Under the pieces are notes generated by a model. That model did not search any database and was not told the origin of the DNA. It saw nothing but the letters and a program-made list of their open reading frames with translations. A stretch of 64,000 nt of DNA. Origin: Deuterostichococcus epilithicus. Lineage: Eukaryota; Chlorophyta; Trebouxiophyceae; Prasiolales; Stichococcaceae. The stretch is taken from NCBI GenBank assembly GCA_033439295.1, contig JAVTLE010000008.1, positions 1,922,001 through 1,986,000 of the forward strand. Direction: 5' to 3'. Shown here in pieces: positions 290-62,521 of the stretch (position 1 is the stretch's first letter; the number at the start of each line of letters is the position of its first letter). The position numbers and the translations under genes are program-made.

Positions 290-2988
290 ACCGTTTCAAA
301 CGAACTGCTCGCTCATCTCATGTCGTGGACATTGTCGTCAGGGCGGAGACCATCAGCTGGCATCCCAGGTGAATGCAACATGTGTGCCGTGCTGTGGCAT
401 TGGGCTGCACTGTTCATCATGTCAGTGTCCATGATATATAGCTCGAGCAAAACAGGATCCCTTGCACCTGGACGTGCGCAGGGCACAGGTCTTTCACAAC
501 TTTATGACGCCTGAGGAGTGCGATCACATTGTCAAGGTCGCTCGGCCCATGGTACGCTGCCATGGCTGCACGTGTTGACTCTGAGCGCCGCGAGCAGGAA
601 CCTGGGTCCTGAGCTACCTGAGCGACACGAAGCAATCGAGCTGTTGTGTCTTTAATTCGACAGATGCGGCAGTCGACGGTGGTGGGAGCCGGAGGCAAGA
701 GCGTCACAGACACAATCCGCACCAGCAGGGGCACCTTCCTCGGGTGAGGAATCCTGCCTCTTGGCTGGCGAACTTGCAGGTCACGCTGCACGCACGACCG
801 AAATCTGCACAGCTGTAGCTGGTTGGTTGCCATATTAATCGGAGACTGCCATCGGGAGCGGCAGGCGCATTGCTGGTATTGCATTCGAAGTGTGTGGCTC
901 GCGCAACCGTCCTCATGGCAGGATGCAGCAACCCGTCTCCCCTGTGCTGCCTCCCAGGCGATATAAGGACGAGGTCATCGGCCGGGTGGAGGAGCGCCTG
1001 GCACTGTGGACGCACCACAACGTCAGCCACCAGGAGGATATGCAGATCCTGCGATATGCTGACCTCCAGAAGTACGGTGCGTGACTGTGTACGATATCGT
1101 GCTGTCTGCTGGCTGATCATCCGAAAGCCCTGTTCCACCTGCTGCCAGGCGGGCTGCTGAGCTACCATCCTGGCAATCAAGGGCGATGTTTCAAGTGAAG
1201 CTGCAGCGCCCTGCCCCAGGACATGCCGCGGCTGCAGCCCTTGACAGGCGGCGTGTAGCAGCAGGGCGCCTTGTGACGTATCTTGTCAGCGGCTCTGCCT
1301 TTCAGTCAACAACGAAAAGAAGCGATTCACATCAAGTTTGCAGGCGTGCACATGGAAGTTTCTGGTGGATGGCCCGCCGCGGCCGGCGACAGCGCTGCTG
1401 CAACACAGTGGCCCCCAGCGAACCCCTTTGCACCCTCTGACATTGACAGCCAACCCCGCAGGCGCGCACATGGATGTGCTGGTGGAGGACACCCCCCGCC
1501 TGGCGATGATGCTGAAAAGTTGTTTTTTTTGCACCGTTTGACATCAGCAGCCAACCCCGCAGGCGCGCACATGGATGTGCTGGTGGAGGACACGCCCCGC
1601 CTGGCGACGGTGCTGCTGTATCTGTCGGACGTGGGGGAGGGCGGCGAGACCGCCTTCCCCAGCAACAGCGTGTGGGCGGACCCGCGCCAGGCCAAGCGCT
1701 TCGGTCCCTTCTCCGAGTGCGCGCAAGGCCATGTGGCCGTCAAGCCCAAGAAGGGTGCGTGCGGTCTGCCCGGCAGCTCTGGGAACACTCGCTCAAGTCC
1801 CTGGCTGACATGGGCAGGCTGTGCTGTGGACTGAAGCCATTAGAAGCGTGCTTCACACACGGCGCGGGGCTGGCCGCAAACATGCTCGTGCCTTCCTGGT
1901 GTCTGCCCCTTGCTGGTCGGGCCTGCGCTTGATTGAAAGGGGTGCTTGGCAGAAGGTGGCGTCGCGCAGCAGCCTGCTGCCATGCACTGGACTGTTCATT
2001 GCCATGGACGGCGGCATGCCGCCCTGTCCATCACCCGTCTTTTTGTCCTCTGCTGGAACACTTCCTGCTTCGCATCGCCGCAGGCATGGCGCTTATCTTC
2101 TACGACATCCATCCGGACGGCAAGACTCAAGACCCGCGCAGCATGCACACCGGCTGCCCCGTCATCCGGGGCGTCAAGTGGACGGGCACCGTGTGGATCC
2201 ACACGGCGCCCTTCCGGCCAGAAACTCTGAAGGAGGCAGGTGAGAGAAAAGGACGACGGACATTTGAAACCGGCGTGGCCAATTCTGCAGCGGCCTGCGT
2301 TCGTGGCGTCATGCTGGCTGGCTCGTGCTCCCAGCTGCCCTGCACTCCAGCTGCCCAACAGCATCGGAAATGCCAACATGATCGCCTGAAGCGCAGCTGG
2401 CTTTGGTGTGAGCGCCGTAGTGAGCGTGCCCGTGCATGTACTGACGGCTTCCCTGCGGGTGCTGTGCAACAGCTAACAGCAAGATACAGATGCCAGAGGA
2501 CTGTGACGACTACAACAAGAAGTGCAAGGAGTGGGCTGACATGGGTGCGCAGCCTCACACGTATATGTTGTTACTTCAGTCCATTGCTGGTCCGTGCCGG
2601 ACACCTGGGTCATCGGCATCGACCGCAATGTTCCTGACCGCTTGCAGGGGAGTGCCGCAAAAACCCTGAGTACATGGAGGGATCAGACGGTGCGTGGTGC
2701 TGTAAGTTTGAACCTCGACCATCTGTGTTTTCTTGCAAGAGGTATTTTGCAGAGCCGTTGTAAATGCTCGCCGCAAACGCTATCATCGGGAGGGTGGTGC
2801 GCGGAAGGACGTGCGCCAGGGCTCTCTCTGATCTGAGTCCTGCAATAATTTGCCGTGTGATCGCAGGTGCATTTGGCACATGCCGAAAAAGTTGCAAAAA
2901 GTGTGAGGACTGTGCGAAGGACGATGCTGCATGTCGGGCGCGGAATCGCATCGCGGCGGGCTTTCCTTCGCTCGATGACCTTGCTTGA
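290..2988 (+). CDS. Prolyl 4-hydroxylase catalytic subunit with C-terminal ShKT domain (5' end unresolved)
   Basis: An Fe(II)/2-oxoglutarate dioxygenase that hydroxylates peptidyl proline, in plants and algae usually on secreted or wall glycoproteins in the ER/Golgi. It is split over about nine exons. A first recognisable exon ends in ETISWHPR (to ~369). It is followed by AQVFHNFMTPEECDHIVK (482-550), STVVGAGGKSVTDTIRTSRG (~664-743), the segment ending ILRYADLQKYG (957-1075), the core exon 1562-1757 with HMD (iron-binding HxD) and VATVLLYLSDV-like text, and 2084-2239 with SMHTGCPV (distal iron-binding His) and IRGVKW (2-oxoglutarate Lys). The last exons (~2478-2544, ~2649-2690, 2868-2988) give a cysteine-rich ShKT module (CRKSCKKCEDC). 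All catalytic residues are present. The N-terminal signal/anchor is not identified, and the true start may lie upstream. The intron before the core exon carries two decayed copies of that exon's edge. Confidence 0.87.
1341..1616 (+). repeat. Triplicated intron/exon boundary in the prolyl hydroxylase gene
   Basis: Three tandem copies of a segment made of intron 3' end, CAG acceptor and the start of the HMD-encoding exon. The acceptors begin near 1341, 1459 and 1560. The last is the functional one, because its frame continues into the full exon. Copies two and three are 101 bp apart and nearly identical, and the match extends upstream into the intron (GCACC...GACAT...CAGCCAACCCCGCAG). The first copy, 118 bp earlier, is more diverged but still recognisable. 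All three keep an AG acceptor. Use of the second copy's acceptor would run into a stop. Confidence 0.9.
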
Positions 2989-60354: not shown

Positions 60355-62521
60355 ATGGCGGTGGCTGCGGAGCAGTACGAGTCAGACCTTGAAGACGACA
60401 GAAGCGAGGCGTCGGGGTTCAGCGATGACGACGAGCAGCTTGATCGGGATGCTGGCGCAGAATTAGACAGCGGCGACAGGGCATCGGCAGAGGGCGGCGG
60501 CGATGCGGACGTCAGCGGTGACAACGCAGATGGGGCAGCAGCGAGCGGCAGCGACGCTGAGAATAGCAGCGACGAGCAGGCCGGCGCCGCAGCCGCAGGA
60601 ACGCTGCATGATGGTGAGCCTGCTCAATCGGTTGACGGGATGCCGCCGTCCACGCGCCTGCACTGCGGCTGCTGCCCTCAATAGGTCTGGCAGCGGCGCA
60701 TGATGGCAAAGATCGCATGCAAGCGGACAGCAGAGCCGTGCACCTGTTGCATTCTGCGCCATGCAATTTGTCTCAGGCGATACAAATTTAGCCTCAGCGC
60801 CGTTGACCGCGCAGACTCCGGGGCCGCTGCAGCGCCGGCGGAAAACGCGGGGCCCTTCAAGTCGTCGGACAAGGGCGCGGCCATCGCCAAGGCGTTTGCC
60901 AAGGCGGCGCGCGGGCCAAAGGACGACACCGGCGCCGCCATCCTCTCGGTGCGCATTGGCGCTTTCTGTGCACCTGCATGCTCTGCACGCAAGCCACACC
61001 CTCCGCTCATCGCTTTACAAAGCGACTGTACACCTTCGGTAGTACCCGCACACATTTGCACACGGTGACCAGGAAGCTAGTATAGGCGACCAACAGGCGC
61101 CGCCACACCCACGACCCGCAGGGCAGCAAGAGCGTGCTGAAGCGGCAGCGGGAGGAGCAGGCCTCGGAGGCAGTGGACAGACAGGCGCGGCTGCTGCGGC
61201 AGGAGATGCGGCGGCGCGGCCACATCAAGGTCCCCAGGCAAGATCCCTGGCACGATATACTCACGGGTTGGAAGGCAGTGGCTGCATCGAGGCCCTGCAA
61301 GCTTGATGAAGCCCAGCTCGCTGCTGCACGTACATGTCCGAAAACAGTCGCGCCCGCTGCCAGCACCAAACGTCACGAGCTCCTGGGCTTGACAAGCAGC
61401 AGTGCATCTGTGCTGCGAATCTCGCAGCAGCAGGAACAGGAGCATGCCGGGACGCGCCCAGCTTGTCAAGCTGATCCTGCGTTGCAGCCCACGCGCTGAA
61501 CCAGGCGTCTCACAGGCGCAGGAAGGCGGATGAGCCTTGGCAGACCGTCTCCTGCTTCTCATTGTTTTCCTGCTGTCGAGTCGCCTGTCTTGCCCTTTTG
61601 GCGCAGAAAGGGAGAGGAACCGGAGCAGGACGCGGGGGAGAAGTCGCTGCTGCGGACGGCACGGCGCGGCGTGGTGACCCTGTTCAACGCCGTGAGCAAG
61701 GCGCAGAAGCAGCACGCCGAGCAGCAGGCGGTCGGCGGCCGTGCCAAGGTGCCGCCGTTGCCCGTGCAATGTCCCGCTCCCTGCATTGGGACACAAATCG
61801 GCAGAGGGCCCGAGGGCAGTGACACGTTCGAGGGTGTGTGGATGCCGGAGACCAAATGTGCCCTGAAGTGGCTGCCTGAGTCACCACTGAGACGACAGTG
61901 CCTGTGGTTGTGCAGTGCGCCGTCATGGGCCCCATGCAACAGCAGGCGGCCCGGAGCGAGCCGCCAGCAGTGGCGCCTGCATCATCGCCGGGAGACGCGA
62001 ACCCCTGTTGCTGACTGCCTCGGACCGCTGCAGGACAAGCAGCTGACAGAGGCGGCTTTTTCGCGCAGGACAAGCAGCTGACAAAGGCGGACTTCCTGGC
62101 GGAGCTGCGCGGCAAGTCGGGCGCCAGCAGCCGCGCGGCGGCGCAGGCAATCGGTGTGTCCGCCTCGGAGCAGGCCGCGGCGCCGGACGCCCCTGCGTGG
62201 GATGCCCTGCAGGACGACTACGCCAGCCTGCAGAGCGGCCTGCGCATGAAGGTGCGCGCGACGAAAACGACACACCTACTGTTCTTGCAGAGCCAACACA
62301 AGCCAGGCCCGTTTCTGAGCGGCCTGTGCACGGAGGGGCACCATATCCCATGGGTGTCGCGTAGCCTGGGTGTCGCGTAGCGCGCTGGATGGTCGACACA
62401 AGCTGACCTGTAGGGCACCTGCTTGCAGGACTGGGACAAGAAGGCGGCACCTGGGGAGCTGGATGCGGTGCCCGGGGAGACCATGGCAGATCTCGGCAGC
62501 GGTAGCGATGACAGCGATTGA
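60355..62521 (+). CDS. RRP15: RRP15-like ribosome biogenesis protein
   Basis: Nucleolar factor needed for early 60S (25S/5.8S) maturation. The start chosen is MAVAAEQYESDLEDDRSEAS at 60355. The same frame is open further upstream, but that part lacks coding character. Exon 1 (to ~60614) is acidic and Ser/Ala/Gly-rich. The next exons encode AENAGPFKSSDKGAAIAKAF (60829-60945), SVLKRQREEQASEAVDRQAR with LRQEMRRRGHIKVP (~61120-61240), EKSLLRTARRGVVTLFNAVS with KAQKQHAEQQ (~61606-61750, the RRP15 signature), DKQLTKADFLAELRGKSGAS with DALQDDYASLQSGLRMK (62069-62250) and DWDKKAAPGELDAVPGE (62430-62521), ending DSD. The order matches RRP15: acidic N-terminus, ARRGVVTLFNAV core, MKDWDK near the C-terminus. 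The exon at 62069 has a copied acceptor edge just upstream. Confidence 0.9.
62031..62090 (+). repeat. Duplicated acceptor and exon 5' edge in RRP15
   Basis: Two 25-bp copies, offset 35 bp (62031-62055, 62066-62090), differing at one base: CAGGACAAGCAGCTGACARAGGCGG. The second CAG is the functional acceptor (DKQLTKADF). The first copy's CAG, if used, reads DKQLTEAAFSRRTSS and then stops. Confidence 0.93.

Follow-up and report, generated by a model that had tools for sequence, protein, structure and literature searches.

Copies of exon edges in the introns of a green alga are probably relics of recurrent short tandem duplication

Why do introns in one stretch of a green algal genome so often contain worn copies of the exon edges beside them? 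The stretch (the window) comprises 64,000 nucleotides of Deuterostichococcus epilithicus, at C7:1922001-1986000 (C7 being contig JAVTLE010000008.1) within a 46.8-Mb assembly of 21 contigs. An original prediction from its letters had listed nine exon borders at which a border-spanning segment is repeated in tandem, and had suggested a process acting on exon boundaries. All nine repeat pairs are confirmed, none of them more than a few bases away from its predicted coordinates, and the phenomenon is recurrent: 23 of the 521 introns predicted in 264 kb (window included) carry a copy of their own neighbouring exon edge, against about 0.4 expected by chance. The explanation that we favour, with fair confidence, is a general process of recurrent short tandem duplication, tolerated across exon borders since splicing at the outer sites would restore an unchanged message. 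The border itself is probably not a target of duplication.

Local alignment scores of the nine window pairs range from 15 to 57.5, above the 99th percentiles of random draws (10.0-12.5). The control for each case consisted of 1500 draws of 200 bp of intron, with the case's own intron left in, and the observed score was reached by 0-3 of these draws in every case. The weakest pair is that of the aminopeptidase, whose exon is absent from the gene model. The pairs, together with one comparison pair, are as follows.

1551-1616, plus strand: prolyl 4-hydroxylase exon start, the retained copy (gene model, match to PDB 2jig)
1450-1514, plus strand: younger intronic copy of the prolyl hydroxylase exon start (62/65, offset 101)
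1340-1400, plus strand: older intronic copy of the prolyl hydroxylase exon start (80% over 61, offset 219)
5574-5604, minus strand: leucine aminopeptidase exon start (frame read by eye; pair score 15)
5630-5664, minus strand: decayed intronic copy of the aminopeptidase exon start
12539-12557, minus strand: exon start (14 bases) of an RBR ligase (ARI type) with 5 intron bases
12602-12620, minus strand: intronic copy of the RBR ligase exon start (19/19, offset 63)
12333-12388, minus strand: RBR ligase exon end (protein ...LLDTYRT) with about 12 intron bases (gene model, protein alignment)
12222-12278, minus strand: first intronic copy of the RBR ligase exon end (offset 110-111; 12234-12257 wrongly modelled as an exon)
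12123-12165, minus strand: second intronic copy of the RBR ligase exon end (91% over 43, offset 237)
29351-29400, plus strand: protoporphyrinogen oxidase (PPOX) exon end (to 29388) with 12 intron bases
29440-29489, plus strand: intronic copy of the PPOX exon end (47/50, offset 89; 29451-29477 wrongly modelled as an exon)
40145-40230, minus strand: PRP5 helicase exon end (60 bases) with 26 intron bases
40040-40123, minus strand: intronic copy of the PRP5 exon end (77% over 87, offset 105-107; GT now GC)
53852-53884, minus strand: MRD1 exon start, first case
53971-54007, minus strand: intronic copy for the first MRD1 case (30/36, offset 123)
54356-54464, minus strand: MRD1 exon start (46 bases) with 63 intron bases, about one whole unit
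54467-54571, minus strand: tandem copy, in the intron, of the 54356-54464 unit (76% overall)
62065-62090, plus strand: RRP15 exon start (from 62069) with 4 intron bases
62030-62055, plus strand: intronic copy of the RRP15 exon start (25/26, offset 35)
58612-58695, no strand assigned: comparison pair in a stretch modelled as intergenic (36 nt, offset 48)

The predicted number and extent of the copies had to be amended in places: the prolyl hydroxylase and RBR ligase donor cases are arrays of three copies (a tandem alignment of 175 columns at offset 118 and a self-alignment of 152 bp at offset 127, respectively), and the second MRD1 pair (54356-54464 against 54467-54571; 109 columns at offset 107-111) consists mostly of intron. 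Where a whole unit can be aligned, as in MRD1, prolyl hydroxylase, and the RBR ligase, origin by local tandem duplication is borne out. On our own reading of the protein motif, the prolyl 4-hydroxylase acceptor may alternatively lie at 1563, after CCCCGCAG. The predicted N-terminal part of PRP5 includes a low-complexity Arg/Asp-rich coding stretch with short repeats (window 44119-45319).

We analysed 264 kb, the window plus the 200 kb upstream of it on C7, and took 50 kb of contig C3 as an extra sample. Genes were modelled with an unsupervised hidden Markov model, blind to repeats and seeded with assumed amino-acid frequencies and rough splice-site guesses, which converged on 52 genes and 521 introns in the 264 kb (median intron 220 bp, median exon 120 bp; donor consensus CAG/GTGCG, acceptor YGCAG) and was applied to C3 in frozen form. 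Pfam matches were obtained for 3 of 10 raw open frames. The predicted PPOX matches solved structures (E 1.5e-41) and the predicted prolyl hydroxylase a Chlamydomonas-type P4H (PDB 2jig, E 8.2e-43). The RBR ligase can be aligned to algal homologues over most of its length; among the best 120 of 1053 matches, the first has 63% identity over 74% of the query, and the next named ones belong to the trebouxiophyte green algae Coccomyxa, Myrmecia, Apatococcus, and Trebouxia (46-51%). The model overlooked the aminopeptidase exon beside 5574 and turned an intronic copy into a small exon in PPOX and again in the RBR ligase; opposite the false PPOX exon (29451-29477), each of the two PDB homologues shown has a gap of 9 residues. 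Gene finders may thus take exon-edge copies for exons, as happened here in two genes.

To set the copies against chance, each 40-base block of exon edge was compared to the intron beside it, introns of other genes serving as the control (score of at least 16). Own introns were matched by 14 of 462 acceptor edges (0.08 expected) and by 6 of 454 donor edges (0 expected). Over both sides, 20 of 916 edge blocks match, compared with 1 of 774 exon blocks lying 40-80 bp from the border, 0 of 524 lying 80-120 bp from it, and 2 of 1245 intron blocks tested on the remainder of their own intron. Lowering the score to 14 gives 24 intron-and-side matches, one of which, 14 bp long and 53-67 bp away from the border, was dropped. 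Self-BLAST at E 0.02 gives no exon-to-intron match in five of the remaining 23 introns (143, 225, 368, 421, and 517), intron 143 being matched in another run; the least sure is intron 368, which belongs to a coiled-coil gene with mutually similar exons.

Other scans give a similar picture. A gapped scan of 500 introns (score 18) returned 19 acceptor and 6 donor matches (0.0 and 0.8 expected) along with 3 intron-self matches (0.0 expected), the latter being an array on C7 (intron 349), the prolyl hydroxylase array (intron 397), and a repeat of offset 25 (intron 337). Weaker edge matches in that scan (score of at least 17), in introns 48, 118, 215, 223, 273, and 422, stand outside the count of 23. 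Independently of the gene model, 36 pairs were found at offsets 25-400 and 0-4 at each of seven control offsets (score of at least 17). On C3, 2 of 167 edge blocks match (0 expected), as do 1 of 133 blocks 40-80 bp into exons and 1 of 226 intron blocks.

The offset between copy and exon serves as a candidate unit length, the recognisable copy usually being shorter. Across the 23 cases the offsets span 35-161 (one case, which has a second copy, gives 171), and 15 of 23 fall at 100-127 bp; in the two triple arrays the most distant copies have offsets of 219 and 237. In 21 of 23 cases no more than 9 bp separate the border from the start of the recognisable part, which extends 14-84 bp into the exon. 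The copies sit 13-112 bp inside the border that they copy, and the host introns continue beyond them. Introns with a copy have a median length of 332, against 214.5 for those without (p 6e-8), a difference close to one unit and in keeping with the predicted lengthening of introns. As had also been proposed, the copies differ in age: their divergence from the exon is graded from 0 to about 32%, with a median identity, by our own count, of 0.85 in one scan and 0.875 in another. Pooled mismatches by codon position are 0.114, 0.122, and 0.167 for positions 1, 2, and 3 in the 23 cases. This near-evenness indicates that the copy does not look coding and drifts almost freely, which speaks against alternative or mutually exclusive exons.

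Many copies keep a usable dinucleotide, as predicted: AG or GT is retained in 12 of 23. The inner site has a positive splice score in 13 of 23 copies and scores above the real site in 4. Inner and outer scores are 5.6 and 6.0 for RRP15, 6.9 and 7.3 for MRD1 at 54356-54571, and 6.7 and 6.5 for the RBR ligase acceptor. Were the inner copy used for splicing, the reading frame would be shifted or a stop introduced in 18 of the 23, and the idea that copies serve as splice sites and move boundaries is not supported in the form proposed.

The process that we favour would run as follows. A general mutation process would make head-to-tail duplications in this algal genome, mostly of about 100-127 bp (about 115), and selection would sort them. 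Within exons, most would break the frame and be purged; within introns they would be neutral, both copies drifting until the pair soon became unrecognisable. Across a border, the spliceosome could turn to whichever site lies outermost (of two acceptors the downstream one, of two donors the upstream one) and so rebuild the old message, while the inner exon edge would become intron sequence, the damage probably being hidden by splicing. A border pair would remain visible longest, one of its partners being held by selection on the protein. Purging from exons and use of the outer site in RNA are steps that we infer, as is an origin in staggered DNA breaks repaired by fill-in and end joining; by analogy with the systems discussed below, break repair is probably the source. 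Reverse transcription of spliced message is not favoured, since fresh copies contain intron bases past the splice site (12 in PPOX and the RBR ligase, 23 in prolyl hydroxylase).

Two units that lie wholly inside introns tip the balance towards a general process, border targeting being the less probable reading, and they speak against the original view that exon boundaries are what is acted on. In an 802-bp intron on C7 that shows no coding signal, a 98 bp pair at offset 119-120 lies over 270 bp away from both edges. On C3, a complete tandem duplication at offset 119 (113/119, from 86/87 plus 27/32, the last 32 bases by eye) has no exon inside it. Adjacent direct copies of one whole unit are thus seen in this C3 intron as well as in MRD1, prolyl hydroxylase, and the RBR ligase. 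A lenient scan of all contexts found pairs across borders, within introns, and in DNA modelled as intergenic, with few young cases; a pair at offset 149 lies in such intergenic DNA, and another, at offset 110, links DNA of this kind to an exon. In a strict scan the offsets of exonic pairs were all divisible by three (9/9 rows, 5 loci, one of which falls in a questionable gene at the end of the window); in a lenient gapped scan they were not, and this pattern is not relied on.

Within the C7 intron (1892293-1893094), degenerate repeats occur in several copies, with offsets of 119, 144, and 267.

Concentration at the edges can arise without targeting because the exon copy hardly changes, and a border pair therefore diverges about half as fast as an intronic one, which makes a large difference near the detection limit. 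Old, evenly placed duplications look edge-bound: only the exon-anchored half stays recognisable. We simulated duplication blind to borders, drawing unit lengths from the observed offsets and assuming insertion and deletion rates. At t of 0.2-0.3, the simulations give 0.7-2.9 intron-block matches per 20 edge matches (2 observed), intron-side homology in 8-39% of cases (6 of 23 observed by a local test, p <0.05), and a median copy identity of 0.83-0.86 (0.85-0.875 observed). Old events without border preference thus yield most of the edge focus. In these simulations, border-spanning and wholly intronic events stand at a geometric 1.1-1.4 to 1, and 6-20% of copies at t 0.2-0.25 are detected.

Several observations weigh against a border-blind general process. 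Its cost is that the events must be mostly old: with even placement, removal of exonic events, and even ages, about 30 intron-block and 9 deep-exon matches are predicted per 20 edge matches, compared with 2 and 1 seen, and this version is rejected. Even ages would also put about half of the copies at an identity of at least 0.93 (our own sum from simulated detection rates), a level found in 5 of 23, three of them over at most 22 aligned bases; this shortage of young copies is unexplained. Old ages (t 0.2-0.3) still predict 3.8-6.8 deep-exon matches, and 1 was observed. The narrow unit size is likewise unexplained: were unit lengths even over 20 to 400, 28-29% of detectable cases would have values of 170 or less, and only 26% of those in the 30-170 range would sit at 100-127. 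Border-anchored intron-side homology is present in only 4 of 24 cases, and age may have erased it in most. The C3 unit, wholly intronic as it is, has its second copy ending 20 bp before the predicted acceptor, which makes it weaker evidence against border targeting. Finally, acceptor copies outnumber donor copies by 17 to 6 in the 264 kb (19 to 6 in the gapped scan, p 0.015), a skew for which we have no explanation; it weakens to 18 to 8 when three window cases missed or mislabelled by the gene model are added.

The alternative that survives best is preferential copying of exon edges, in which breaks or template switches concentrated at borders, through chromatin, transcription, or splicing, would lay a copy of about 50 bp some 115 bp away in the intron. 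The contrast between edge blocks, deeper exon, and intron given above (20/916, 1/774, and 2/1245) is what such targeting would produce, as are the failure of the even-age border-blind simulation, the lack of intron-side homology in most cases, and the end of the fresh C3 unit near an acceptor. In PPOX, moreover, the intron match ends after 12 bases though the exon part has only 2 mismatches in 38 (by eye). Set against this are the 119-120-bp units wholly within introns, one far from both edges and one nearly fresh, the border cases that are whole tandem units, and the success of old ages in giving most of the pattern without targeting. We consider border targeting unlikely, with some weight left to it. 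A rather doubtful form of the idea makes exon edges genuine hot spots: some process linked with transcription, splicing, or the chromatin of exons would copy the first or last 20-80 exon bases to a nearly constant distance of about 115 bp into the intron, and introns would grow from their ends by a ruler-like step.

Selection might instead keep the intronic copies, for example as decoy or regulated splice sites that give unproductive transcripts. The copies that retain AG or GT (12/23), score positively (13/23), or exceed the real site (4/23) are compatible with such a role, which is nevertheless improbable: about half have lost the dinucleotide, mismatches are spread over codon positions nearly as in neutral drift, and all stages of decay are present. 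Unequal exchange between strongly diverged alleles, joining one allele's exon edge to the other's intron end across a spacer that was never homologous, would account for the missing intron-side homology. We regard it as very improbable; an excess at third positions would be expected and only a small one is seen (0.167 against 0.114-0.122), and whole tandem units require no second allele.

Intron birth from duplicated exon segments, or from introners with target-site duplication, is less credible again. Direct repeats near introns do serve as a signature for claims of this kind in the portions of a review that treat them (PMC3443670), but the copies here adjoin the border that they copy and the intron continues past them. 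The introns extend beyond the copy, which lies 13-112 bp inside the border, and a gain between two AGGT sites is rejected. As for introners, none of the 521 introns of the 264 kb matches another on the same strand at E 1e-6, the rest of the genome having been compared for two queries only, and one tested intron has no second genomic place; introners are excluded as far as tested. Assembly error, by unmerged haplotypes or misjoined reads, can hardly be credited: 24 ambiguous letters are scattered over the 264 kb, but copy-exon differences are graded from 0 to about 32%, and random errors would not gather at exon edges.

A general process of short tandem duplication would be one of a known kind, and the original statement that no named system fits exactly has to be withdrawn in part. 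The available text of Pace et al. 2009 (PMC2671141) describes repair-mediated duplications in primates, short local copies with fillers, microhomology, or deletions at their joints, whose intensity declines with time. Some hold splice sites or part of an exon with intron (donors: 278 intron, 4 partial exon/intron), and the proximal copy has a median of 147 bp; insertions were scored inside transposons, and copies within 50 bp of each other were excluded by design as tandem. According to that text, those duplications share with ours that they are short and local and in some cases span exon and intron, whereas here the copies are tandem, the mode is 100-127 bp, and the genome is that of a compact alga. 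Schimmel et al. 2021 (PMC8355091), in the sections available, report head-to-tail duplications, tens of bases long, that form once staggered breaks are filled and joined; their size tracks the single-stranded overhang, and the introduction cites natural insertions in humans and plants. The experimental overhangs described there were 43 and 50 bp, and survival across exon borders is not a topic of those sections. Small tandem duplications from staggered breaks are also attributed to Vaughn and Bennetzen 2014 and Schiml et al. 2016 in a passage of PMC5730883.

Parts of a review (PMC3443670) and, with Drosophila cases, of PMC2891723 treat the gain of introns through tandem duplication of exon segments that bear AGGT. 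As presented there, this route has in common with our cases a tandem duplication at or across splice signals with one copy spliced out; there one copy becomes a new intron, and here an existing intron absorbs a piece of exon. Introners, described in part of PMC9860276 as dispersed intron families, some with 3-9 bp target duplications, likewise increase intron content, whereas no dispersed family was seen here in the 521 introns. The interest of our cases lies in their frequency, the unit size, and a built-in reference for dating; in the open literature that our searches listed, we found no report of exon-edge relics this frequent in an algal genome, nor of a 100-127 bp unit.

The lengthening of introns is usually hidden, intron sequence drifting without a reference. 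When a duplication spans a border, one copy drifts and the other is held by the protein, so that each event can be dated against a nearly fixed standard. If about 4% of introns (23/521) still carry a copy and most old copies are, as in the simulations, undetectable, tandem duplication could supply a sizeable part of intron length in such genomes. The copies also constitute natural duplications of splice sites with which the choice of the spliceosome between near-identical sites could be examined.

Three further repeats were observed in the 264 kb. Direct repeats, in several aligned blocks of up to 271 bp, lie about 5.15 kb apart on C7 (about 1912200-1913170 and about 5.13-5.19 kb downstream) and may represent a segment duplication or the two ends of a retroelement. 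A 35-bp unit forms a nearly perfect tandem array of three copies at C7:1916404-1916511, in a stretch modelled as intergenic. At the end of the window (63826-63979), 33- and 69-bp repeats occur in a predicted gene with 7 in-frame stops.

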